Of a DNA stretch of 64,000 nt, positions 6,205 to 51,326 are shown in pieces. Both the position numbers and the translations under genes were made by a program. This DNA comes from Thermosulfuriphilus ammonigenes (lineage in GTDB: Bacteria > Desulfobacterota > Thermodesulfobacteria > Thermodesulfobacteriales > ST65), in contig NZ_CP048877.1 in NCBI RefSeq assembly GCF_011207455.1, positions 302,576 to 366,575 of the forward strand, written 5' to 3'. A model generated the notes under the pieces. The model saw only the letters and a list, made by a program, of their open reading frames with translations, searched no databases and was not told the DNA's origin. Every line of letters starts with the position of its first letter. Within the stretch, counting starts at the first letter, position 1.

Positions 6205-6363
6205 AACCGTCCTAAGATACAGAAGCCTCCAGGGGCTGCAAGCCGCCCCGAGACCCAAAAACACTAACTTCTTCAATTCAATAGCTTTATTCTATTGATG
6301 GTATCTGCCCAATTTATAATTTCTATTGGACGCCTCCCCAAAGACTCGCCTATAAAGGCGAGC

Positions 6364-9300
6364 ATGACCACGAGACGAGATTTTCTGAAGATTGCCGGGC
6401 TTTTGGTAATTTTAGGGCCGGATCTGGCAGATGGCAGGATGCGGGCCGGAGAGGGCTCCCTGAGAAGGCCGGCGCTCATTATCGATCAGACCAGGTGTCT
6501 TGGGTGTCAGGCCTGTGCCGTTGCCTGCTACAATCAGGCCCCGGGGGCCTATCGCTTACGGCTGGCCTTAAAGGAAGAAGGAGGCTATCCCCAGGTAAGG
6601 CCGGTCTTTGAGCATCTTGTCTGTCGTCAGTGCCGTCAACCCTTATGCCTGCCGGCCTGCCCCCAGGGGGCCCTTGAAAAAAGGGCCGGCGTTGTGGTGG
6701 TTAATGAGAAACGCTGTCGAGGTCTGGGCCACTGTCTTAAGGCCTGTCCTTATCCAGGGGGGCTAATCATAAGGGGCAGGAGGGCCCGGAAATGTTCTCT
6801 CTGTCTTGATCTGGTAGGTCAGGGTCTTGTTCCGGCCTGTGTCGAGGTCTGCCCCTCGGGAGCCCGGATATTTGGTGATCTCCTCAATCCCTCAGGGGCT
6901 TTACTCGGCCTTCTGGCCAACAAAGACGTCGCCCGGGCCCTGGCTGATCACCTCCAGATAAAGATCCCTCAGGGCCGGTTTTCGCCAAAGATCTACTCCC
7001 TGTGGCCCAAACACCAAAGGCGCGATCTTCCCCTTGGTGGTCATCACCGTCTGGTCCATACCGTCTGTTTGGCCTGCAATGCCCGGTGTGGTCTCAGAGT
7101 CTGGGCCGCTGGAGAGAGGGTGGTCAAGGTTGAGGGTAACCCATACCATCCTTACAACCGTCGAGGTCGGCCCATTGACTACCACACTCCCCTTAAAGAA
7201 GCCCTTCGGGAGACGGCCAGCACCTGTGGCAAACCCCAGTGTGATCAGGATTACCTAGAAAATCCTTATCGGCTCCGGGTTCCCCTTAAACGCAACGGGC
7301 CTCGGGGTTCGGGGCGCTTTGTACCCATCTCCTGGGAGCAGCTCATCCGCGAAGTGGCCGAAGGGGGGCGGCTCTTTGCCCACCTTGGGGAAGATCGCCA
7401 TGTTCCTGGCTTAAGAGAGGTACTCAGCGACGAGCCAATTTCCCCACGAGCCCCCGAACTTGGGCCGCGTCGGAACCAGCTGGTCTGGATTACGGGACGT
7501 TCTCAGGCCGGTCGGAAGCACTTTATCAAACGTTTCGTTTGTCAGGCTGTGGGATCAACCAACTATATCGGCCACACCGACATCTGTGGTCTGGGGTTTC
7601 GTATGGGAAACTGGGCCTTTACCGGCCAGAAGGAGGTAGAGCTTAAGGCCGATCTCTGGAATGCTCGCTATATTCTCATCTTTGGCTCCAACATTTATGC
7701 CGCCCTTCAGCCGGGGGTCAACACCGCCGGGGCCACCCTGGCCGAAAGGGCGGCCAAGGGAGATCTCAAGTATGTAATTATCGACCCCCGGGCCCATGAG
7801 GCCGTGTCCCAGGCCCACCTTTGGTTACCGGTGCGGCCCGGGAAAGACGGAGCCCTGGCCATGGGGATCATGCACGTTCTCCTCAAAGAGGGGCTCTATG
7901 ACCGGGAGTTCCTCTCTCTGGCAAACCAAAGAGCCGCCGCTAAAAAGGGGCGTAATGTCTTTAGCAATGCCACTTATTTGGTGATCACCAGCCCGGGGCA
8001 CCCGGCCTGGGGGCGCTTCATAAGGGCCAAAGATATCGCCCCGCCCCCGGGAAATGAGAATGACCCGCTGGTGGTCTCGGCCTCCGGAAGGGTGGTTCCG
8101 GCCAGCCAAACTGACCGTGGCCTTCTTGAGTGGCAGGGAGAGATAACCCTTAAGGACGGCTCGCGGGTAAAGGTCAAGACAGCCTTTTCTATCCTCAAAG
8201 AGGAGGTCCTCTCCCGGAGTCTTTCTTTCTATGCCCGAGAGTCTGGGGTGGCCGCTTCAAAGATTCGCCAGGTGGCCCGGGAGTTTGCAGAGCATGCTCC
8301 TCAGAGTGCGGCTTTTGCCTACCACGGCGGGGGAAATTACGTTGGAGGCACCTACGCCAGCTACGCCATTGCCCTTCTTAATGCCCTGGTGGGCAACATC
8401 AACCTTCGGGGCGGCTATCTTCCGGCCGGCGGGGGTGCTGGCCCCTGGCGGAAGGGTCGATATGATCTCCGAAGCTTTCCCGGAGCCATAAGACCTCAAG
8501 GGGTAAAGATCTCCAGGGAGCGGGCCGCTTATGAGAAAAGTCGCGAATTCAAAGAGAAGGGGTATCCCTCTAAGCTGCCCTGGTTTGCCTTTACCAAGGG
8601 AGGGCTTTCTGCTTCGGCCATGGCCGGCATTGAGGCCCGGTATCCTTACCCTATAAAGATTCTCTTTACCTACTTCTTTAATCCCGTCTACAGCATTCCC
8701 GGGGGGAAACGCTTTGAGGAGACCCTAGCCAGCCCGGAAAAGGTCCCTCTTCACGTTTCTATTGACGTAACCATCAACGAGAGCAACATCTACGCCGACT
8801 ATATTGTCCCTGATGTTACCTATCTTGAAGGACACTATGGGTTTCTGACCCCTCACGCCCCGGGCCAGAAATTTACCGCTGTGAGGACGCCGGTGGTGGC
8901 TGCCCGCACGGGCCAAACGGACGATGGTCGTCCCTTCTGTCTGGAGACCTTCCTCATTGACTTGGCCGAATACCTGAAACTTCCGGGCTTTGGGCCCCGA
9001 GCCATTGCCGACTCCAGGGGAGGGCTCCATCCCCTACACCAGGCCGAAGACTTCTACCTCCGGGGAGTGGTCAATCTGGCCGAGGGTCTGGGAATCCCCC
9101 CGGCCTCTCCTGAGGAGAGGGCCTACGTGGAGGCCAATTATCCTGTGGCTGCCCACCGCCGGATACTCAGCTCCGAAGAGTGGGCACGGTGTTGCAGTAT
9201 TTTGGCCCGCGGTGGGGTCTTTTTGCCCCCGGAGGCTGCCTTCGATGAAGGGGGCAATCTCAAAAGGGGCATTCCCCAGGTCTTTATCTGGAACGAAGAT

Positions 9301-9897
9301 CTGGCCACCAGCCGCAACAGCTTAAATGGCAAACCCTTCTGGGGAACAGCCAGATATCAGTCGGCCCATCTGGCTGATGGCCGCCTGGTGGAGGAGGTTG
9401 ATGCCTCCTATCCTCTGGTCCTTATCACCCACAAACTGGCCCTTCACACCCAGTCCCGAACCATCTGTTATCGCCGGGCCCTTGAACTTTTACCTGAGCC
9501 CAGAGTCCTCCTTAACCCTCAAGACGCCCGGGGGCTTAAATCCGGGCAATGGGTGAGGTTGATCTCGGCCTCAAATCCTCGGGGCCTTAAGGCCCGGGTG
9601 GAGCTCTCCGAGAGGGTTCGCCCCGGGTGTCTGGTCGTGCCCCATCATTTCGGCCACTGGCAACACGGGGCCTCGGAGCTTGAGATTGAACGCGGCCAGG
9701 AGGCCCTCCTGGGGGGCAAAGACCTGGTCTTCGGCTCAAAGGTAAGGGCTGACAAGAGCCGGGCTCGGGGGATAAGCCCCAATCTGCTGGCCAGGTTAGA
9801 TGAAACCCTTGATAATCTTCCCTTGGTTGATCCGCTGGGAGGGATCCCTGACTTCAGCAGCACGCGGGTGGCCATTTTAAAGGAGGAAAGGCCATGA
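6364..9897 (+). CDS. Fused ferredoxin/molybdopterin oxidoreductase, tetrathionate-reductase-like (TtrB-TtrA fusion)
   Basis: Starting at ATG 6364 (not the TTG at 6295) places the Tat signal MTTRRDFLKIAG at the N-terminus, predicting export of a folded, cofactor-loaded enzyme. Residues about 30-190 are a four-cluster ferredoxin (CLGCQACAVAC, CRQCRQPLCLPAC, CRGLGHCLKAC, CSLCLDLV). Residues about 230-1177 are a molybdopterin subunit with CLACNARC for its own [4Fe-4S] cluster, NPYHPYNRRG, a likely Mo ligand Cys in TDICGLGFRMG, and NIYAALQPGVNT, all resembling TtrA. Normally TtrA and TtrB are separate. One ferredoxin ligand is missing: CRGLGHC has Leu where CxxC expects Cys. No TtrC-like membrane anchor is adjacent. 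Tetrathionate as substrate is inference; another sulfur oxyanion is possible. Confidence 0.8.
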   Translation: MTTRRDFLKIAGLLVILGPDLADGRMRAGEGSLRRPALIIDQTRCLGCQACAVACYNQAPGAYRLRLALKEEGGYPQVRPVFEHLVCRQCRQPLCLPACPQGALEKRAGVVVVNEKRCRGLGHCLKACPYPGGLIIRGRRARKCSLCLDLVGQGLVPACVEVCPSGARIFGDLLNPSGALLGLLANKDVARALADHLQIKIPQGRFSPKIYSLWPKHQRRDLPLGGHHRLVHTVCLACNARCGLRVWAAGERVVKVEGNPYHPYNRRGRPIDYHTPLKEALRETASTCGKPQCDQDYLENPYRLRVPLKRNGPRGSGRFVPISWEQLIREVAEGGRLFAHLGEDRHVPGLREVLSDEPISPRAPELGPRRNQLVWITGRSQAGRKHFIKRFVCQAVGSTNYIGHTDICGLGFRMGNWAFTGQKEVELKADLWNARYILIFGSNIYAALQPGVNTAGATLAERAAKGDLKYVIIDPRAHEAVSQAHLWLPVRPGKDGALAMGIMHVLLKEGLYDREFLSLANQRAAAKKGRNVFSNATYLVITSPGHPAWGRFIRAKDIAPPPGNENDPLVVSASGRVVPASQTDRGLLEWQGEITLKDGSRVKVKTAFSILKEEVLSRSLSFYARESGVAASKIRQVAREFAEHAPQSAAFAYHGGGNYVGGTYASYAIALLNALVGNINLRGGYLPAGGGAGPWRKGRYDLRSFPGAIRPQGVKISRERAAYEKSREFKEKGYPSKLPWFAFTKGGLSASAMAGIEARYPYPIKILFTYFFNPVYSIPGGKRFEETLASPEKVPLHVSIDVTINESNIYADYIVPDVTYLEGHYGFLTPHAPGQKFTAVRTPVVAARTGQTDDGRPFCLETFLIDLAEYLKLPGFGPRAIADSRGGLHPLHQAEDFYLRGVVNLAEGLGIPPASPEERAYVEANYPVAAHRRILSSEEWARCCSILARGGVFLPPEAAFDEGGNLKRGIPQVFIWNEDLATSRNSLNGKPFWGTARYQSAHLADGRLVEEVDASYPLVLITHKLALHTQSRTICYRRALELLPEPRVLLNPQDARGLKSGQWVRLISASNPRGLKARVELSERVRPGCLVVPHHFGHWQHGASELEIERGQEALLGGKDLVFGSKVRADKSRARGISPNLLARLDETLDNLPLVDPLGGIPDFSSTRVAILKEERP

Positions 9898-10916: not shown

Positions 10917-11012
10917 GCTACTCTTGCCTGAAGGATATTTTCAGGGCAGGTAACATCTATTTAAGATAAATAAAATCTTGTGTTACTAAATTTAATTTGA
11001 TATTAAGAATTC

Positions 11013-11861
11013 ATGTCTTTCGCGGATCTTCTTAGCTCTGACTTCTGGAAGAGCTACACTGGAGAGGCGGCCGAGTGGTCGGTGGTGCGAAGGGGGTTTG
11101 AATCCCATCGCTGGGACGTTATCGCTGACAGTTACCAGGATTTTGTTCGTTCCACCAGCTACGGAGAGACCGTCAAAAGGGTTGTCTCCATCCTCCAGGC
11201 CAAAGGGGTTCTGGGGCCGGATAAGACGGTCCTGGATGTGGCCTCTGGCCCGGGAACTTTCGCTTTGTTGATGGCCCCCATGGTGTCCCGGGTCACTTGT
11301 ATCGACATCTCCCCGGCCATGATTAAGGAGCTTGAAGCAGAGCTCAAAAAGCGCAGGCTCACCAATGTCCGGAGTATCTGCCAGGATTGGTTTACCTACG
11401 AGTCTGAAGAGGACTTTGACCTGGTCTTCTGCGGCATGAGCCCTATTCTCGATGATCTCAGGGCCCTTGACCTAATGCTTAAACGTTCTCGTCGTTATTT
11501 AGCCCTGCTTTACTGGGCCGGCCCCTATGAAAACGACCTCTTTCTCCGTCTGTACCGGGAGGCCACCGGGGAGGAGTTGCGCTGGTTTTCGGCCAACGCC
11601 GTGGCCCTCTTTAATTATCTTTACGGCCTGGGCTACCTTCCGGAGATCAGCTTCTTTAAGCAGACTTGGGAGCTAGAGCTACCGATAGAGGAAGAGGTCT
11701 CTTATCTTCTCTGGTGTTTGAGCTTCTATAAGGAGCCCTCTCCCCTTGATGCCCAGATTGCCCACCGCCTCGTCCAGGAAAAGGCCTCAGAAAAAGGGCT
11801 TATCAAAGACGTAACCCGCACCAAACTGGCCTTTATTTTCTTAGACAAGAAGGCCGACTAA
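11013..11861 (+). CDS. Class I SAM-dependent methyltransferase
   Basis: A 282-residue protein with methyltransferase motif I VLDVASGPGTFALLMAP, motif II VTCIDISPAMIKELEAEL, and a later QDWFTYESEEDFDLVFCGMSPIL segment. The N-terminal 65 residues (FWKSYTGEAAEWSVVRRGFESHRWD) form a helical cap. The substrate cannot be predicted. It lies immediately upstream of a TonB receptor and two metal-uptake-like genes on the same strand. Similar methyltransferases beside TonB receptors may modify a metallophore or regulate uptake, but that link is speculative. Confidence 0.8.
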   Translation: MSFADLLSSDFWKSYTGEAAEWSVVRRGFESHRWDVIADSYQDFVRSTSYGETVKRVVSILQAKGVLGPDKTVLDVASGPGTFALLMAPMVSRVTCIDISPAMIKELEAELKKRRLTNVRSICQDWFTYESEEDFDLVFCGMSPILDDLRALDLMLKRSRRYLALLYWAGPYENDLFLRLYREATGEELRWFSANAVALFNYLYGLGYLPEISFFKQTWELELPIEEEVSYLLWCLSFYKEPSPLDAQIAHRLVQEKASEKGLIKDVTRTKLAFIFLDKKAD

Positions 11862-11900
11862 CCCCACCCCAGGGGCCCATTCCTCAGCAAAATTTTTTTA

Positions 11901-11924
11901 AAAAAAAGTGGTAGCACTTTTTTT
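11901..11924 (+). terminator. Candidate terminator hairpin between methyltransferase and TonB receptor genes
   Basis: A perfect 10-base stem AAAAAAAGTG/CACTTTTTTT with a 4-base loop is followed by more T-rich sequence. The stem is AT-rich, so it may terminate in both directions weakly, or serve instead as a regulator-binding palindrome for the receptor gene. Confidence 0.5.
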
Positions 11925-11994
11925 ATTTTTTTGTTATTTAGGGAGGCCACTTGGTGTTATAAATTTTAAAAACATAGCAAAAAGGAGGTTTTCC

Positions 11995-13821
11995 ATGCGC
12001 TTTCTTTGGTTGTTGGTTGCCCTTTTTCTCCTTCTTCCTGGCTCCTCTCTGGCCCAAGAAGAGGGCGAGAGTCTGGGAGAGATCGTGGTCACTGCCACCA
12101 GAACCCCCCATCGTCTTAAAGATGTCCCGATAGAGACCGAAGTCATCGATCGTCGTCAGATCGAAGACTCAAACGCCCTCACCATAAGCGACCTTCTTCG
12201 CTATAGCCCGGGACTCTTCATCCGGGCCGAAGACCTTCCCGGCATCTCGGCCTGGCGCTCCCGGATAAGGGGGCTTGACCTCAATAGCGGCTACGGCCTT
12301 ATCCTCGTCGATGGCCAGAGGGTTAAGGGAGGGGGCATGGGAGAGTATGGCTACGGACTCAACCAGATCCCCTTAGAGCTCATCGAACGAATAGAAATCG
12401 TCAAAGGCCCGGGATCTGTCCTCTACGGTAGCGATGCCGTGGTGGGGGTTGTAAACATCATCACCCGGCCCACTCCCAGCAAGACCTTTCTCACGGCCTC
12501 GGGGCTTTACGGAAGCTACAAAACCAAGATGGTCAACCTCACCGGAGGAGGCCCGGTAGGTAATAATTCTGGAATCCTGCTAAGCCTTGACCGGGAGGAA
12601 GCAGATCGACGCAAGTATGGTGGCCCGGGAGATGAATATCAGCGGGATCACTTCTGGGCCAAAGCCAGTCACCAAATAAATAAAGATACCCTGGTTGACC
12701 TGACCTTTAAGTGGGAAGAGCGCGACCGTCTTTACGCTGACGAAGAAAAGCTGCGTCTCTCCCCTGCCCTGACCTGGGACCTTAAAGGCGACCTCCGGCT
12801 CCGCCTATCCGGATATCTCTATAAGTGGGATTTCCATCATTTCACCCCCGGGTACACCGAACGCAAGGGGAACATGACCTATCGTCAGGGTGAGTTTCTT
12901 CTAAGCGGCCCGCTGGGAAGACACCTTCTCACCCTGGGAGGGGAGTTCCTGGAGGAGTCTCTGGATTACAACCTGGCTGAGAAGACCATCGATACCAAAA
13001 GTCTTTTTATTCAGGACGAGCTGGAGGCCCTTGAAGAAAGGCTGAGTCTGGTAGCCGGAGTGCGCTACGATGACCACTCCGTTTTCGGGAGCGAAATCAA
13101 CCCCCGAGTGGCGGCCATGTGGCGTTTCGGTAAGACCGGAAGACTTAGGGCCTCTGTTGGTCGTTCATTTAAATCACCCACTGTCCGTCAGCTCTACTAT
13201 CGAGAGCCCTTCCTACACGGAAGCTATTACATAAAGTCAAACCCTAACCTTGATCCTGAGACTTCCTGGGGCTTCAGCCTGGGGGTGGAGGGAGTGATAG
13301 CCTCCGGGATCTGGACCTCGGCTACCCTGTTCCGTCATGACGTAGAGGATATGGTCGTAAGGGTGGAGACCAACGAGAGCATCGGAGGAATACCCGTAAG
13401 AACGTATGAAAATGTCCAGGAGGCTTACACCGAGGGCCTGGAACTAGCCCTGAAGATAGTGCCTACAGCGGCCAGCGAGATCAATCTCAGCTACACCTTC
13501 CTGGAGACAGAGAACAAAGACACCGGAAAGGATCTGCCTTACAGCCCCCGTCACTCTCTGGCTGTGCGTTTGGGCTACCAAGGCCCCTGGGGTCTGAAGA
13601 CTTTAGTCGGAGTCCAGTTTGTGGACCGGGTCTATAGCAACACCACCAACACCAAAAAGATCGACTCTTACTGGCTGACTGAGGCCAAAATCATAAAGAA
13701 CTTTGGCAAAGGCTGGGAGATTTTTATGGAAGTGGACAACCTTTTTGAGACCAGCTACGGCGAACCATCCAGAGATTGGGCCGGAAGGAGCGTTTTTGTG
13801 GGGACGAAAATGAGATTCTAA
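11995..13821 (+). CDS. TonB-dependent outer-membrane receptor
   Basis: The start at ATG 11995 follows an AAGGAGG site and gives a signal peptide ending GSSLAQ. The TonB box region reads EIVVTATRTPHRLKDVP. The plug domain is clear (LLRYSPGLFIR, RIRGLDLNSGYGLILVDGQR, RIEIVKGPGSVLYGSDAVVGVVNIIT), and the 22-stranded barrel follows, ending in the terminal aromatic motif SVFVGTKMRF. At 608 residues it is in the compact cobalamin/metal-chelate receptor range. Downstream NikK-like and NikL-like genes suggest nickel or cobalt (or a metallophore) as cargo; this is inference from context. Confidence 0.92.
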   Translation: MRFLWLLVALFLLLPGSSLAQEEGESLGEIVVTATRTPHRLKDVPIETEVIDRRQIEDSNALTISDLLRYSPGLFIRAEDLPGISAWRSRIRGLDLNSGYGLILVDGQRVKGGGMGEYGYGLNQIPLELIERIEIVKGPGSVLYGSDAVVGVVNIITRPTPSKTFLTASGLYGSYKTKMVNLTGGGPVGNNSGILLSLDREEADRRKYGGPGDEYQRDHFWAKASHQINKDTLVDLTFKWEERDRLYADEEKLRLSPALTWDLKGDLRLRLSGYLYKWDFHHFTPGYTERKGNMTYRQGEFLLSGPLGRHLLTLGGEFLEESLDYNLAEKTIDTKSLFIQDELEALEERLSLVAGVRYDDHSVFGSEINPRVAAMWRFGKTGRLRASVGRSFKSPTVRQLYYREPFLHGSYYIKSNPNLDPETSWGFSLGVEGVIASGIWTSATLFRHDVEDMVVRVETNESIGGIPVRTYENVQEAYTEGLELALKIVPTAASEINLSYTFLETENKDTGKDLPYSPRHSLAVRLGYQGPWGLKTLVGVQFVDRVYSNTTNTKKIDSYWLTEAKIIKNFGKGWEIFMEVDNLFETSYGEPSRDWAGRSVFVGTKMRF

Positions 13822-13849
13822 AAAAGCAAAATTAACAAGGAGGTTGGAA

Positions 13850-14635
13850 ATGAGACACCTGATAACCTTTTGTCTTTTAATCTTCTCGGTGACCGCCTTG
13901 CCCCCGGTAGCCGAGGCCCATTTCATGTGGCTAAACCCTCGTACCTATGCCTTTATGCCTGGAGAATCCCTCCAGATGACCCTGGGATGGGGGCATTCCT
14001 TTCCTGGCCAGGGGGGTGACTTTCTGCCTCAAGAAAGGCTTAAAGAGGCCTTTGCCCTCTCTCCTTCGGGGCAAAAGATTTCCCTGTCAGCCTCAAAGAT
14101 CCCCATCATCTTTCGCGCCCAGACAGCCTTCGAGGAGGAGGGAAGCTATTTATTGGCCGCCCAGCGTAAGGCAGGATTCTTTACCAAGACGACCTCCGGT
14201 TACAAGCGACAACCCAAAAAGGGCCTTAAGGGGGTCATTGAATGTAAGTTCTCCAGAGGATATGCCAAGGCCATTGTCAGCGTAGGAAAGGCTGGCGGGC
14301 AGGTTTACCGAAAGGTTCTCGGTCACGAGCTAGAGATAGTACCCCTTAAGGACCCTAACATCCTCCGGCCGGGAGACTACCTTCCCATACAGGTAACCTT
14401 TAAGGGAAAGCCCCTGGCCAAACATTTTGTCTATGCCACCTACGCCGGTTTCTCTCCCACGGGGGAAACAGACTTTGCCTACGCCACTGAAACCGACTCC
14501 CAGGGTCGGGCCCAGATTCGGCTTGATCGTCGCGGAGTCTGGCTAATAGTGGTCCGTTACCTGACACACTATCCTGATTCTCGGGTGTGCGATCTCTACA
14601 AGGTGGTCTCTACCTTGACCTTTGAACTCCGATGA
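13850..14635 (+). CDS. DUF4198 exported protein, NikK-like metal-uptake component
   Basis: ATG 13850 lies 6 bases after AAGGAGG; a TTG at 13844 is too close to it. The signal peptide ends at VAEA, leaving a mature N-terminus HFMWLNPRTYAFMPGESL, typical of DUF4198, in which the exposed His is thought to help bind metal. Two immunoglobulin-like halves follow, with LGWGHSFPGQGG and HFVYATYAGFSP. DUF4198 proteins (NikK) accompany ECF-type nickel/cobalt transporters. Here the transporter itself is absent and the gene follows a TonB receptor instead. Confidence 0.78.
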   Translation: MRHLITFCLLIFSVTALPPVAEAHFMWLNPRTYAFMPGESLQMTLGWGHSFPGQGGDFLPQERLKEAFALSPSGQKISLSASKIPIIFRAQTAFEEEGSYLLAAQRKAGFFTKTTSGYKRQPKKGLKGVIECKFSRGYAKAIVSVGKAGGQVYRKVLGHELEIVPLKDPNILRPGDYLPIQVTFKGKPLAKHFVYATYAGFSPTGETDFAYATETDSQGRAQIRLDRRGVWLIVVRYLTHYPDSRVCDLYKVVSTLTFELR

Positions 14636-15105
14636 TAGCTCTCAGAAGGGTCCGGCCGAAAGGTGGCCGGACCCTAATAGCCTTAATTCTGCTGGGAAGT
14701 ATCCTTCAGGCCTCTCCGCTATGGGGTCACCGGGTGGGGTCCCGGGTAATTCAAGGCGGAGTGGGACTTGAGGCCTTCTACGGTGACGGCTCTCCCATGG
14801 CCTACTGTCAGGTGGAGGTTTTCCGCCAAGGGGACAAACTCCCCTTTCAAACCGGGGCCACTGACAAAAATGGCCGTTTCCTCTTCTTTCCTGATCCACC
14901 GGGTAGCTACCAAATAGTCATCAGCGACGGTCAGGGACACCGACTGGAGAGAACCATAGCCACCGGAAGGAAGAGCCAGCCCCAGCCCGGAGAAGAGACC
15001 TCAAAGAATCAACTAAAACCTGCTCTCCTGGATATTCTCAGGGCTGGATCAGGCCTGGTCTTGATTTTGATCTTTTATTTCGTGCTTAAGAGATATCTCA
15101 AGTAG
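14632..15105 (+). CDS. NikL-like protein: carboxypeptidase-regulatory-like domain with C-terminal membrane helix
   Basis: A 157-residue protein. A signal peptide (TLIALILLGSILQASPLWG) is followed by a His at the likely mature N-terminus. A beta-sandwich of the carboxypeptidase-regulatory type follows (VEVFRQGDK, ATDKNGRFLFFPDPPGSYQIVISDGQGH), then a charged spacer, and one C-terminal membrane helix (AGSGLVLILIFYFVLKRYLK). This is the architecture described for NikL, an accessory protein of nickel uptake systems. It overlaps the NikK-like gene by 4 bases (ATGA). Confidence 0.72.
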   Translation: MIALRRVRPKGGRTLIALILLGSILQASPLWGHRVGSRVIQGGVGLEAFYGDGSPMAYCQVEVFRQGDKLPFQTGATDKNGRFLFFPDPPGSYQIVISDGQGHRLERTIATGRKSQPQPGEETSKNQLKPALLDILRAGSGLVLILIFYFVLKRYLK

Positions 15106-15173
15106 TCTTTTCTCTGATCCTCCTTTGGGGCCGATCAAATCTAAAAGGCCTAAAGGGCCCAAAGGAGGAAAAA

Positions 15174-16199
15174 ATGTTGCGAATCACCATTGCCAGCCTG
15201 CTTATAGTCATCCTTCTTTCCTGTGGTCGAGAAGCCTCCCGGCCCGGAGTGCTCGACGAAGCCGGCCTTCTTAGCAAAGAGGAAAAGAAGCGCATCGGCC
15301 GCATACAAGAGGTCCTCCTCAGGGATCTGGATATAGAGCTAAGGACCGTTGTTCTCAAAAAGAGGGCCCCGGATATAGATCTTCTGGCTGTCCAGATCTT
15401 TGAAAAAGAGGCCCTCGGCTCAAGGACCAAGGGCGCCAGGGGCATACTTCTCCTGATTGACCCAGCCGGAGAAAAGGTTCGGCTGGAGATAGGCTATGAT
15501 CTTGAGCCCATCCTTACTGATGTCTTCGTGGGGTATATCGAACGCAAACAGATGGTTCCCTTCTTTACCTCCGGCAAGATAGGACCAGGAATAGAGGCCA
15601 CCGTAGAGCTTATCGCCGCTAAACTTCTTGAGGCCATAAATGAAGGGGACTATCAGCCCGAGGCCTCCCCGGAAAACCGCCCTGAATACCTCTCCGGAGG
15701 AGGAGGGGCCAAGGCCTCCCTGAGGGTGAATCAGCCTCTAAAGACCCCTGAATCACCCAATCTCAGGGACCTCTTCGGCCCCCAACCAACCCCCTTAGCC
15801 GCCCTTGAAAAATACAAGCAGGTCCTCAAACTCCACATAAAGGCCGCTGACCTCGGGCTCTATACCCCAGAGACCCAGAGGTTTTTTCGTCAGTGGCTGG
15901 TAACCGACGCCCAGCAGGAAAATGCCTTAAAGTCTCTTCTAAAGGCCCCGCCGGCTGAGGTCATCATCCTTGGAGACCGTGCTGTCATCCGCTTTCCGGT
16001 GGAACAAAGGGAATATCCCCCCTATTTTCTCCGCCGAGGCCAGCAAGGTTGGATGCTCGACTTTGCTACCATGAACCGGGCCATTCAGTTTAACCACCTT
16101 AATCAATGGCACTTTCGCACCCTAGAACACCCTTATATGTTTGGCTTTAAAGATTTGATCTTTGATGATAACGGCTTTCCCCATAAACCAAGCCGCTAA
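15174..16199 (+). CDS. TPM-domain lipoprotein
   Basis: A 341-residue protein. The N-terminus MLRITIASLLIVILLSCGRE has a lipobox with Cys17, predicting a lipoprotein. Residues 25-155 match the TPM (YgcG) fold: VLDEAGLLSKEEKKRIGRI, GILLLIDPAGEKVRLEIGYDLEP, FVGYIERKQMVPFFTSG. The remaining 185 residues are not recognised; they include a DFATMNRAIQFNHLNQWHF segment near the end. TPM proteins have been linked to membrane-protein repair and phosphatase activity. It follows the NikL-like gene by 68 bases with its own AAAGGAGG site. Confidence 0.8.
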   Translation: MLRITIASLLIVILLSCGREASRPGVLDEAGLLSKEEKKRIGRIQEVLLRDLDIELRTVVLKKRAPDIDLLAVQIFEKEALGSRTKGARGILLLIDPAGEKVRLEIGYDLEPILTDVFVGYIERKQMVPFFTSGKIGPGIEATVELIAAKLLEAINEGDYQPEASPENRPEYLSGGGGAKASLRVNQPLKTPESPNLRDLFGPQPTPLAALEKYKQVLKLHIKAADLGLYTPETQRFFRQWLVTDAQQENALKSLLKAPPAEVIILGDRAVIRFPVEQREYPPYFLRRGQQGWMLDFATMNRAIQFNHLNQWHFRTLEHPYMFGFKDLIFDDNGFPHKPSR

Positions 16200-38783: not shown

Positions 38784-40988
38784 CTAGACCAAAGGCGGCA
38801 TCTCCAAAGCCGGATGGCCGACCTTCTTCAGAAACTCGAGAACCTCCTCCTCTGTAGTGCCTACGCTCTCATCGGCAATCTTATCCAGAAGATCGGGCAT
38901 GCCTTCTTCCTCACAACGCTTAAGGAGTTTGTCCTTTAGCTCCTCTTTGAGCATCTTGGGCATCCAGACCACCCGCTTAAGCCCTCCCTCGGCTTTGAGG
39001 AACTTCCGACTGGTAATGTAGTGTTTGGAAACACCCAAAAAGCCCGGAGTCACCTGACCGCCGCCAACCATTCCGGCCATAGTGGTAAACTTCATCCCGG
39101 TAGGAGTCATTCCCAGATAGTCACGATTGACGATCATAATGCCGTTGCAGGCCGGAAGCATGGTGGCAATACACTCAAAGCAACCACAGGCCGTCATGGG
39201 ATCGACCATCAGGCTATAGAGAGAGACCCTTTCCACCTTGTTACGGCTATTTTTATAGACATATTCGTTGATTCCCTTGAACTGACCGAGAACCGGATCA
39301 ATACACTCTCCTTTGGGGACAGGCTGGTTAGGACCAGTGGGGTTGATCTCATAAGAAGCCTTACCATCGAGCCAGTTGTAGGCCCCACACATCCCCACCC
39401 GCTCCGGGGTAATGATGCAGACATGATTAGGGGCAAAAGACTGGCAAAGGGTACAGGAGTAGAAAATCTCTTCGGTCTCATCGGTCATACCCTCAATCCG
39501 GGCATCCCGGCGGGCATAGACCTGTTTGGCCAGCTCCATGATCTCCTTGACCTTATCTTCCTCGGTGTAAATGGTCACCTGAACCTTATCAATTATGGAA
39601 CCAAAATCTTGGTGAAGCTTAGCGTGAAGAATGCGGCCAATATGCTCAAATTTAAACCCCTTCTCTCGGGCCTGCTTGCTTACCCTGAGCCACATGATGT
39701 TTCTCTGGCCCACGTGCATAATGCCCTGGGCATAGTTGATGAGATGATGAAACTGACGCTCAATAATGGGCTCGAAATCCTCTTGCATGCTCCGACCGGC
39801 CACTTCCACCAAGATAGCCAGGGGAAGACGACTTCCCTCAGAAACTTCATCCATCTCCGGCCCCACCACCTCTACCTTGCCGTCCTGCACCTCATGCATC
39901 TCCCGAGAAAGGAGAAGCTCTACCGCCATGGTCTTACCACCGCCGCACTCAAGGTAGAGGTCGTCTTTACGGACGCGTTCCCCCTCAAAGGCCGGACCAT
40001 AGGAGACGGGAATATCGATCTTGGTGACCGTGACCTTAAGCCCTCTGACCTCGATGGCCTTCTGAACGATCTCCTCATGGGGAACATTGCTGACCACATG
40101 TTCATAGGTGCAGATTCCGGTGGGCAGAATCTGCGGGATATCCCAATCAGAGATGGTAGGGAAGCCCCAGTTTATAGCCCCAGCGGCATTGGCATACCAC
40201 TCGTCTGAGACCGGCCCGAAGGCAATAACAAAGGCAAAGGTTCGGTCCTTATTGTAGAGAAGATTGCCCAGATAATCTCCTGGTTTGATGCCCCCGAAGG
40301 CCAAAGCCACCCGACAGGCAAAACCTATGGCAAAGATGGCCGATGAGGTTGTCGGCCCAAAAGGAACCAGACGGGTGCTCCAGCCTATCTGAACATCCTG
40401 GTGGAGAAGTTGCTCGGCCATACGGCGGCCATCGGTATCCGAGTGCATAAAAACATAGAGGTTCTTTTCTTGAAGTTCACGGGCGATTTTGACGGCCGTC
40501 TCCTCAGAAGGAGGGGCCCCCAAAATGGCGGCAAACCCAGGGGCCGTACCATCGACGAACTCCACCCCCCTCTTTCGGAAGATGACGTCATCAGCGGCCC
40601 CCAGCCAGATACGATCGCCAACAGGATCCTCTGTCTTGGTGTAAAAATCGGGATCCTCCAGGTAGCGAATCGCCTCGACAACCTCCTCAGCAAAAAAGGT
40701 GGCCATGCCGGCATCCAGGGCCGGACCAAGGTAAGGAAGCCAATGATGTTCATCTGGTACCGGCGGCAGAAGCTTTCGGGCCTCCTCCAGAGCCTCTTGA
40801 CAATCTCCGAGTTTTTTGACCGGAAGTCCCAGAATAGAATAGATAATCGGCAAATAATAGGCCGTATTTGGAAAGGCCACCTCCTGATCCTTTCCAAACT
40901 TCTTGACCGCCTCTTCATATTTGGCCCAGGCCTCATCGACAATCTTGTGGGACCCACGAATGGCAGCACTAGCGATGATCTTGGACAT
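38784..40988 (-). CDS. acsB: Acetyl-CoA synthase catalytic subunit (CO dehydrogenase/ACS alpha or beta)
   Basis: A 734-residue protein. A-cluster ligands are clear: SCTLCQSFAPNHVCIITPERVGMCGAYNW and TACGCFECI, which supply the [4Fe-4S] and the Cys-Gly-Cys nickel site. The N-terminal domain (about residues 1-310) is present (SAAIRGSHKIVDEAWAKYEEAVKKFG), so this is the bacterial, full-length form. It condenses CO from CooS, methyl from AcsCD and CoA into acetyl-CoA. ATG 40988 is preferred over an in-frame TTG 12 bases earlier. Confidence 0.95.
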   Translation of the reverse strand: MSKIIASAAIRGSHKIVDEAWAKYEEAVKKFGKDQEVAFPNTAYYLPIIYSILGLPVKKLGDCQEALEEARKLLPPVPDEHHWLPYLGPALDAGMATFFAEEVVEAIRYLEDPDFYTKTEDPVGDRIWLGAADDVIFRKRGVEFVDGTAPGFAAILGAPPSEETAVKIARELQEKNLYVFMHSDTDGRRMAEQLLHQDVQIGWSTRLVPFGPTTSSAIFAIGFACRVALAFGGIKPGDYLGNLLYNKDRTFAFVIAFGPVSDEWYANAAGAINWGFPTISDWDIPQILPTGICTYEHVVSNVPHEEIVQKAIEVRGLKVTVTKIDIPVSYGPAFEGERVRKDDLYLECGGGKTMAVELLLSREMHEVQDGKVEVVGPEMDEVSEGSRLPLAILVEVAGRSMQEDFEPIIERQFHHLINYAQGIMHVGQRNIMWLRVSKQAREKGFKFEHIGRILHAKLHQDFGSIIDKVQVTIYTEEDKVKEIMELAKQVYARRDARIEGMTDETEEIFYSCTLCQSFAPNHVCIITPERVGMCGAYNWLDGKASYEINPTGPNQPVPKGECIDPVLGQFKGINEYVYKNSRNKVERVSLYSLMVDPMTACGCFECIATMLPACNGIMIVNRDYLGMTPTGMKFTTMAGMVGGGQVTPGFLGVSKHYITSRKFLKAEGGLKRVVWMPKMLKEELKDKLLKRCEEEGMPDLLDKIADESVGTTEEEVLEFLKKVGHPALEMPPLV

Positions 40989-41022
40989 AGTTCTTCTCAA
41001 CCCCCCTGTTATAGTCTCGTTT

Positions 41023-49334: not shown

Positions 49335-51326
49335 TTAGGTTGTCGGTCCGTGACACCCTACGCCCTGAAGTGGGGTGTCAAGCTGGCGCCTCATAGCCAT
49401 ATCAAAGAGGACGCGCTCCCGCTTCTTATCAAGGCCTAGGGCCTTTCTCTTTTGACGAATCTGATCAATCATAATGGAGGCAAAATCCTTGGCCTCCTTG
49501 GCCAAAAACCAGCGGGCTCCGTAGATTTCCTCCATCTCCTTAAAAAGATGATCCGTAGCCTCTTGAGACTTGGTGGTCGGAAAGGTAGGACCAAAGACAA
49601 CCGAAGCCCCGCTAGCCACAAAATACTGACCAATGGCTATAGCCTTCTCACTCATCCACTGAGGAGCACAACCAATGGCCGGAAGATCACTGATATCCTC
49701 TCCCAGGCCACCGGTGCGAACCATCTCGGTAGCGGCGATGAGAATCCGGCTGTTGTCCACACAAGAGCCCATATGAAGCACCGGCGGACAGCCGACAGCC
49801 TCCAGAACCTCCCTCAGCCCCTCACCGGCCAGCTCCGCAGCCTCTGGAGAAAGAAGGCCAGCCCGGCCAAGGCCGGTTGCCGCACAACCGGTGGTCAGCA
49901 CCAAGACGTTATTAGCAATGAGCTCTTTGGCCAGCTCTACGTGGACCTCATCCTGAATCCGGAAGTTATCACAGCCGACAATGGCCGCCACCCCGAGGAT
50001 GCGACCGTTGATGATGTTGTCGTTAAGGGGCTTATAAGAAGCCCGGAAGCGTCCACCCTGGATATAAAGGATGGTCTCATGACTAAACCCGGCAACCACG
50101 TCCATCTTGGCCTTGGGGATATAGACCTTGCCCCGCTTAGGAAAACGAGCAATGGCCCGACGGACAATATCCTTGGCCACCTCTAAGGCCCGATGATGAT
50201 CAAAGGGAACATGAGTCGCCCCGACAATTTCGGCCCGATCACTGGTGGTAATTACCTCGGTGTGGAAACAGCGGGCAATCTCCGGAAGAGACTGCATGAC
50301 ACACTGAACATCAACCACCATGGCCTCAACGGCTCCGGTGGTCAGGGCAATCTCTTGCTGAACAAAGCTACCAGCAATAGGGATCCCGCGACGCATGAGG
50401 ATCTCATTGCCGGTGCAGCATATTCCAGCCAGGTTGATCCCTTTGGCCCCGACCTTCTTGGCCTCGGCAATTATTTCCGGATCCTGAGCCGCCATGGCCA
50501 AGGCCTCAGCCAAAACAGGCTCATGACCATGAACCGTAATATTGACCATGTCCTCCTTCAGGACTCCCAGGTTGACCACCGTCCGAATGGGCACTGGGGT
50601 GCCAAACATTATGTCCTGAAGTTCTGTGGCCAGCATGGACCCGCCCCAGCCGTCAGCCAAAGCACACCGAGCAGCCTGGCGGAATATATGGCGAAAATCC
50701 TGATCCACCCCCATATGGGTTCGGTGCATGGTCTCCACCACTTCACGATCAATACCCCGAGGCACCACTCCCAGCTCCTGCCAAATTTCCTGGCGCTTTT
50801 GAGGAGCCCGACGTATAAAATGAAGGCTCCCCTCCTGCTTACCAAACTCCGCCAGGGCCGTCTCTCCCACCTCAAGGGCTAGCTGCTGAATGTCCTTCTC
50901 GGCGGGGTCTATGCCCAGCCAGGCAGCCATCCGGCGAAGTTTGAGGGTGTCTTTTATCTCGTAAGGGGTCTCCCCCTTTGCCGTAGCAATAAAGGCCAGG
51001 ACTGTCTCCCGGGCATGATCAGAGTGAGAAGCCGTACCGGCAGCCACTATCCGAGCGAAGTTGCGAGCCGCTACCGTAGAGGCGGTGGCCCCGCAGATGC
51101 CAATCATCTCCTCCACACCTTCGATAATCTGACAAGGCCCCATATTGCAGTTACGGCAACATGTCCCACCCTGGCCAAACAGACAGGGGGTAGCCCCTCG
51201 CTTCTCTACCCGGTGGGCAGCGGTGGTCACTCCCTGGGCCGGTTCCTGACAGAGAACCTCTCGGTTGACCAGGCACTGGATACTGGGACAGCCACCGTTA
51301 GACTTAAAACGCTTACTCGTATCCAT
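49335..51326 (-). CDS. cooS: Anaerobic carbon monoxide dehydrogenase catalytic subunit
   Basis: A 663-residue CooS/AcsA. The N-terminal cluster ligands are PCLFGQGGTCCRNCNMGPCQI. Later family blocks are ICCTGNEILMRRGIPIAGSFVQQE, VYIPKAKMDVVAGFSHETI, VLTTGCAATGLGRAGLLSPEA and VLHMGSCVDNSRILI. They supply the Ni-Fe-S C-cluster site. In this context it reduces CO2 to CO for acetyl-CoA synthase. It is the first gene of the cooS-hdrA-...-acsE run and has its own promoter at 51361-51389. The hdrA gene starts 78 bases downstream. Confidence 0.95.
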   Translation of the reverse strand: MDTSKRFKSNGGCPSIQCLVNREVLCQEPAQGVTTAAHRVEKRGATPCLFGQGGTCCRNCNMGPCQIIEGVEEMIGICGATASTVAARNFARIVAAGTASHSDHARETVLAFIATAKGETPYEIKDTLKLRRMAAWLGIDPAEKDIQQLALEVGETALAEFGKQEGSLHFIRRAPQKRQEIWQELGVVPRGIDREVVETMHRTHMGVDQDFRHIFRQAARCALADGWGGSMLATELQDIMFGTPVPIRTVVNLGVLKEDMVNITVHGHEPVLAEALAMAAQDPEIIAEAKKVGAKGINLAGICCTGNEILMRRGIPIAGSFVQQEIALTTGAVEAMVVDVQCVMQSLPEIARCFHTEVITTSDRAEIVGATHVPFDHHRALEVAKDIVRRAIARFPKRGKVYIPKAKMDVVAGFSHETILYIQGGRFRASYKPLNDNIINGRILGVAAIVGCDNFRIQDEVHVELAKELIANNVLVLTTGCAATGLGRAGLLSPEAAELAGEGLREVLEAVGCPPVLHMGSCVDNSRILIAATEMVRTGGLGEDISDLPAIGCAPQWMSEKAIAIGQYFVASGASVVFGPTFPTTKSQEATDHLFKEMEEIYGARWFLAKEAKDFASIMIDQIRQKRKALGLDKKRERVLFDMAMRRQLDTPLQGVGCHGPTT

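Follow-up and report, generated by a model that had tools for sequence, protein, structure and literature searches.

A TonB-dependent receptor with NikK- and NikL-like proteins forms a probable NikR-controlled nickel uptake cassette in Thermosulfuriphilus ammonigenes

We analysed a 64,000-nucleotide stretch of the Thermosulfuriphilus ammonigenes genome (contig NZ_CP048877.1, positions 302,576 to 366,575), here called the window. Its positions 11013 to 16199 contain five plus-strand genes, among them a TonB-dependent receptor (TBDR) followed by a NikK-like DUF4198 protein (P0003) and a NikL-like protein (Table 1). These three genes probably serve NikR-controlled, TonB-driven nickel uptake, in which the metal is relayed from the NikK-like to the NikL-like protein and on to a distant NikMQO importer. 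Support comes from NikR boxes before this receptor and most others of its clade, from related cassettes that run on into NikMQO genes and from a fold match of the NikK-like protein to a nickel-bound DUF4198 protein. Computation backs the regulation and the partnership of the genes; the transport, the ligand and the hand-over of the metal are inferred. The cassette is best read as a modification of systems already known, and it suggests what so-called orphan NikK/NikL pairs may do.

Within the class, 15 of 41 genomes contain relatives of P0003, with that of P0003 itself counted, and in the phylum a profile of receptor-linked proteins matched 86 of 395 genomes (E ≤ 1e-8). The class search contributed 16 places, the phylum search 80 (weaker matches left out) and 4 additional non-duplicates were included; the mapped set, with the window and the genome's own energy-coupling factor (ECF) transporter locus, comprised 102 sequences. 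As the loci were chosen by a DUF4198 match, the linkage of receptor and DUF4198 gene is partly built in, and the meaningful contrast is that between receptor clades, all of which were sampled alike. The cassettes are not all independent, since L073 and L074 represent two species of one genus and L038 and L039 are near-copies.

The receptor claimed by the earlier note, which had been made from the letters alone, was confirmed as TonB-dependent, with Plug (83.5 bits) and beta-barrel (183.8 bits) domains above the Pfam cut-off and an ExbB-ExbD-TonB energy complex encoded in the genome (contig C1:2169538-2171274). Among 73 receptor rows it fell into a clade of 19 (Shimodaira-Hasegawa-like approximate likelihood ratio test, SH-aLRT, 100), and all 19 clade receptors are followed by a DUF4198 gene, as loci selected for that gene would favour. 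DUF4198-neighbouring receptors as a whole split into several clades. The clade still stood when BtuB, CirA, FepA, FhuA and FecA of E. coli were added, and all five lay outside it; the grouping with siderophore or cobalamin receptors, which the earlier note had named as contrary evidence, did not appear. These were quick trees with SH-aLRT support only, in which deep joins among long branches are unsafe. Two specific identities were rejected for the receptor. The best NCBIfam model was TonB-B12 (TIGR01779; 198.3 bits, cut-off 599.7), and an identity as BtuB was dismissed on this score, on the separation from BtuB in the tree and on the lack of a cobalamin riboswitch in the window. The TonB-dependent siderophore receptor model TIGR01783 gave 164.8 bits (cut-off 223.5), and this identity was dismissed on that score and on Fur motif scores at null level.

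NikR-like sites, which the earlier note had proposed to look for, were found before the receptor as two one-mismatch boxes within 11911-11980. The delta-proteobacterial NikR box is given as GTGTTAC-N13/14-GTAACAC, or the same halves in reversed order (PMC545781). We used a widened consensus, with Y or R at four places and N13, and counted a receptor as boxed at 12 or more of the 14 letters. A box was then present upstream of 13 of the 19 clade receptors and of none of the 36 other DUF4198-linked receptors (Fisher p 1.9e-8; the test leaves out L034, where the receptor is cut by a contig end, and only about 120 bases were available for the scan in L037, L076, L097 and L117 of the 36), compared to 45 of 3000 random stretches from the same loci. 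With the strict consensus, none of the 32 other receptors with stretches of at least 300 bases reached a score of 11. Sites from the window and from further loci had already been viewed when the consensus was widened, so the boxes of the window do not amount to a blind test; the contrast of 19 against 36 leans less on the window.

At one mismatch or fewer the outward pattern RTARCAC-N13-GTGYTAY has a single place in the 2.287 Mb genome, which is the site before the receptor, and the inward pattern GTGYTAY-N13-RTARCAC has three, one of them again before the receptor. When the 130-base upstream stretch was shuffled by single bases 20,000 times, one box type arose in 6 shuffles, the other in 4 and both in none. 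The inward box ends 14 bases before ATG 11995, the preferred start of the receptor (preceded by AAAGGAGG), and a box in L062 has the same spacing to its start codon. A NikR is encoded in the genome (about C1:851119-851538) and, with the candidate boxes upstream, the receptor is classed as a putative NikR-regulated nickel receptor. NikR was also present in all 12 other genomes with a boxed clade receptor. The search of clade genomes without a box covered four, with those of L052 and L059 left out, and two of the four (G076 and G078) lacked NikR. In L052, boxes of 14/14 and 13/14 by the strict consensus precede tonB, the first gene of a tonB-TBDR-K-L operon (K and L standing for the NikK- and NikL-like genes), and this locus was scored as having no box before its TBDR. 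Similarly, a perfect strict box precedes a receptor-like gene and K in L070, and boxes of 12 or 13 precede exbB-exbD-tonB in L062, L090 and L112; L062 has NikR boxes both before the receptor and before exbB. Elsewhere in the genome, a one-mismatch NikR-like box was seen between two radical-SAM-type genes (L147:5441-13077, C1:565440-573076), in a cluster that is nif-like by eye and includes a cyanase-like protein.

The NikK/NikL-like pair of the earlier note held for the DUF4198 protein, which matched PF10670 with 146.7 bits (gathering cut-off 34). Its partner reached 52.9 bits with NF058648, under the cut-off of 100, and is therefore named NikL-like and not a curated NikL; the NikL of the ECF operon in the same genome reached 158.4 bits. 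The predicted mature NikK-like protein starts with a histidine, residue 26 of P0003, and has a second conserved histidine at residue 51 in GWGHSFP. Both are kept in 19 of the 19 clade cassettes, and among all 103 DUF4198 genes the first was found in 101 and the second in 100; the cleavage site was set by eye and with a regular expression, to which 17 of the 19 clade proteins conform. The NikL-like protein has the same arrangement, with a histidine at its predicted mature N terminus (residue 33) and a second conserved one 70 residues on, and both columns are filled in 55 of 55 NikL-type genes, ECF ones included. The first histidine lies within the first 70 residues in 50 of these 55, preceded by a signal-peptidase-like motif in 45 of the 50 (regular expression); the remaining five are three NikM-NikL fusions and two genes with a probably misplaced start.

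The structure model of the NikK-like protein (predicted local distance difference test 87.8, predicted template modelling score 0.88) had two clear matches, followed by a next fold at Z 6.4. The closest solved structure was Zcp, which captures zinc in the periplasm of Neisseria gonorrhoeae (Z 27.4, 220 residues, 29% identity; its PDB entries include 9mhi). The other was the nickel-bound DUF4198 protein 9gcb of Ideonella sakaiensis (Z 23.4, 210 residues, root-mean-square deviation 2.7), in which His1 and His18 hold the nickel with a dissociation constant of 18 nM (PMC12537917). TonB receptors and NikR are listed among the neighbours of the DUF4198 family in the same paper. The window protein shares with 9gcb the fold, the N-terminal histidine, a second conserved histidine, which may be the equivalent of His18, and the TonB-receptor neighbours, but only 23% identity. 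The fold is common to the window protein and Zcp, whereas in the sequence alignment the second-histidine position reads GWGH in the window protein and GYGE, with a glutamate, in Zcp; Zcp is zinc- and Zur-regulated (PMC13343924) and no excess of Zur motifs was found in the receptor clade. The NikL-like protein was modelled as a small beta-sandwich that has a single helix at its C terminus; Foldseek gave no match for it in the PDB at E ≤ 0.001.

Within the clade a NikL-like gene directly follows K in 13 of the 19 cassettes. In L041 and L042 exbB-exbD-tonB stands in its place, and in L082, L095, L100 and L105, the last near a contig end, neither follows. In L073 and L074 the genes lie on the same strand in the order TBDR-K-L-NikM-NikQ-NikO, no gap exceeding about 120 bases, and L061, which belongs to another family and is cut by a contig end, reads K-L-NikM-NikQ-NikO. 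Among the mapped loci, Thermosulfurimonas dismutans (L040:8644-9911) has tandem DUF4198 genes behind its receptor, the first only 156 amino acids long. A different partnership was seen in L067, L068, L080, L083, L085, L098 and L111, where the gene after DUF4198 is, by eye, amino-acid-permease-like.

No NikM, NikQ or NikO adjoins the window cassette, as the earlier note had seen; its premise of a NikK/NikL pair lacking an ECF partner proved wrong at the level of the genome. The search it had proposed for NikMQO or CbiMQO in the genome, a single contig of 2,287,345 bases, identified one complete nikK-nikM-nikL-nikQ-nikO operon (C1:523092-526598), which contains the only CbiM/NikM. The genome thus has two NikK/NikL-type sets, of which the one in the window is coupled to a receptor. 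It also holds three further TonB receptors and a third DUF4198 gene; NiCoT was not found. The genome's NikM starts with Met-His. On the opposite strand upstream of nikKMLQO lies a small reading frame that is winged-helix-like by eye and could be the operon's regulator (L011:4650-4900).

In the proposed mechanism, nickel-loaded NikR would repress the cassette, and nickel shortage would lift the repression. The receptor would then import a nickel complex, powered by the genome's ExbB-ExbD-TonB. The soluble NikK-like protein would take the ion with its N-terminal and second histidines, and the membrane-anchored NikL-like protein, with the same pattern of two histidines, would hand it to the NikKMLQO importer about 200 kb away, so that the carriers would form a chain of N-terminal-histidine sites. 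NikKMLQO would bring nickel into the cytoplasm, where CooS, AcsB and other nickel enzymes would be the end users. The presence of CooS and AcsB in the window, which the earlier note had tied to nickel demand, was borne out by models above their cut-offs. Likewise, the nickel side of the outer-membrane-to-periplasm relay suggested there gained support from the NikR boxes, the NikMQO-linked cassettes and the match to 9gcb. A broader view can be put forward only tentatively, namely that NikK and NikL serve chiefly not as subunits of ECF transporters but as a portable bucket brigade for nickel in the periplasm, with nickel crossing the whole envelope via N-terminal-histidine sites. The first histidine of each carrier would become a metal ligand only after cleavage of the signal peptide, and the pair could be plugged in behind a NikR-controlled receptor, before NikMQO or both, with no classical substrate-binding protein.

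Several observations weigh against nickel uptake under NikR control. By the strict consensus the inward box scores 10/14 and the outward box 11/14, and the outward box overlaps a terminator-like hairpin. Genome-wide, boxes at two mismatches or fewer show no excess over the reversed control (14 vs 28 and 10 vs 22), and in the pooled 102 loci (1.367 Mb) the strict consensus at 12 or more gave 15 sites, against 12-17 in five shuffles. The weight of the evidence therefore lies on the position of the boxes, and the separation of the clade on position before receptors together with the widened consensus. No box scoring at least 10 precedes the genome's own nikKMLQO, and in G023 and G215 NikR is present yet the clade receptor is unboxed. 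Zcp is nearer to the NikK-like protein than the nickel protein is, by sequence (E 2.3e-22 vs 0.0028) as well as by fold, NCBI models label the NikM relatives 'cobalt transporter CbiM', and in Caulobacter Fur regulates DUF4198 genes that adjoin TonB receptors (PMC3751524).

Some of these points favour iron or zinc uptake, in which the DUF4198 protein would capture the metal in the manner of gonococcal Zcp or of the proteins under Fur control in Caulobacter. Such genes are also iron-responsive in Alteromonas (PMC7190382), and FeoB lies near DUF4198 genes in L054, L062, L094 and L106, of which L062 is a near relative of the window cassette. However, L062 itself has NikR boxes before receptor and exbB, NikR scores before the 19 clade receptors exceeded the null but scores for the Fur and Zur consensus did not, Zcp has a glutamate in place of the second histidine, and the L073 and L074 cassettes run on into NikMQO; we consider an iron or zinc substrate unlikely. 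Still less likely is cobalt or a corrinoid, taken up through a BtuB-like receptor for cobalt supply or B12 salvage. The TonB-B12 model was the receptor's best, the adjoining methyltransferase is weakly CpaM-like (40.7 bits, cut-off 180), the linked ECF permeases match CbiM models and cobalt has been predicted as the cargo of some NikKMLQO systems (PMC2667541). The TonB-B12 score is far under its cut-off, though, E. coli BtuB lies outside the clade and the NikR boxes point to nickel. There is no Rfam match, and hence no cobalamin riboswitch, in the window. Eight further loci, of which seven are related and one is the ECF locus of this genome, gave a single cobalamin riboswitch, situated in L073 beyond NikO. 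An alternative that keeps NikR, and to which we give somewhat more room while still finding it rather unlikely, is that the pair acts as a sensor or store of nickel in the periplasm, or helps the receptor, with no hand-over to NikMQO. Since NikK and NikL are already present in the ECF operon, a second pair is not obviously required for import, and the clade includes cassettes with ExbB-ExbD-TonB instead of a NikL-like protein (L041, L042) and four with neither. Against this stands the single K-L pair between TBDR and NikMQO in L073 and L074, as a shared relay predicts.

Compared with NikKMLQO systems, the cassette has homologous NikK-type (DUF4198) and NikL-type proteins, both with histidine at the predicted mature N terminus, and L073 and L074 have NikM-Q-O directly after such a pair; it differs in that the window pair stands after a TonB receptor and away from NikM/Q/O, and the ECF operon has its own pair. 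The nickel receptors FecA3, FrpB4 and NikH, named among others in PMC11247825, resemble the window receptor in TBDR type, NikR box and proposed nickel role (NikR control of FecA3 and FrpB4 according to titles cited there), whereas the window receptor comes with dedicated periplasmic carriers. Orphan nikK or nikKL genes away from NikMQO have been described in Desulfovibrio vulgaris, with a candidate NikR site at nikK (PMC545781), in Candidatus Electrothrix gigas (PMC11247825) and in a 2009 survey, which saw no neighbours accounting for them and suggested nickel-independent roles (PMC2667541). The passages on these orphans mention no receptor partner, whereas the window pair has one. DUF4198 genes have also been linked to iron (PMC3751524, PMC7190382, PMC11870441, PMC8238504), and there are other zinc- or iron-related mentions (PMC4176598, PMC10826366, PMC7970244). 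A literature search of partial coverage found no account of NikR-boxed TBDR-NikK-NikL cassettes. The cassette bears on how nickel travels from an outer-membrane receptor to an inner-membrane ECF pump, which has no ordinary binding protein. It gives orphan NikK/NikL pairs a receptor and the boxes of a nickel regulator, and in two species of one genus (L073 and L074) relatives of such orphans stand in an operon that spans the outer membrane to the cytoplasm.

Table 1. Positions of the cassette, its neighbours and the nickel enzymes within the window.
Feature	Position	Strand	Remarks
S-adenosylmethionine methyltransferase	11013-11861	+	Methyltransf_25, 50.2 bits; neighbour, probably outside the cassette transcript
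Hairpin followed by T-run, probable terminator	11900-11924	+	RNA fold of 11860-11940, z -2.4
NikR-like box, outward type	11911-11937		GTAGCAC-N13-TTGTTAT; overlaps the terminator-like hairpin
NikR-like box, inward type	11954-11980		GTGTTAT-N13-ATAGCAA
TonB-dependent receptor (TBDR)	11908-13821	+	reading frame opens with GTG 11908; likelier start ATG 11995
NikK-like DUF4198 periplasmic protein (P0003)	13844-14635	+	PF10670; likely start ATG 13850
NikL-like membrane-anchored beta-sandwich protein	14632-15105	+	NF058648, below cut-off
TPM-domain protein	15174-16199	+	PF04536, 72.5 bits; downstream neighbour, membership doubtful
AcsB	38784-41000		1119.1 bits (cut-off 800)
CooS	49335-51326		626.6 bits (cut-off 478)

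The earlier note had the NikK/NikL-like pair follow the receptor and a methyltransferase. A hairpin with a T-run separates the methyltransferase gene from the receptor, so this gene is probably a separate transcription unit, and the likely unit consists of the receptor, the NikK-like and the NikL-like genes, the last two overlapping by 4 bases; the hairpin was absent from the list of the consensus scan. The TPM gene follows after a gap of 68 bases and probably lies outside the unit; among the mapped loci no TPM-matching gene was marked adjoining another cassette. The TPM-domain protein has a lipobox, judged by eye, and a strong hairpin 5' of its gene (15118-15170, z -2.6) encloses the ribosome-binding site.

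In all four other loci with a homologue of the methyltransferase at E ≤ 1e-5 (L043, L044, L087 and L114), the homologue stands no more than two genes away from TonB-system genes, which are TonB receptors, exbB/exbD or the gene for a binding protein of FecB/BtuF type; a weaker match in L055 has no TonB-system genes beside it. NikR-like half-sites, GTAACAT and GTGTTAC, were seen 23 bases apart 5' of the methyltransferase (10950-10986). Further upstream, 6295-9897 encodes a protein of 1200 amino acids that is a TtrA-like molybdopterin oxidoreductase, with an N-terminal part that resembles the iron-sulfur subunit TtrB.

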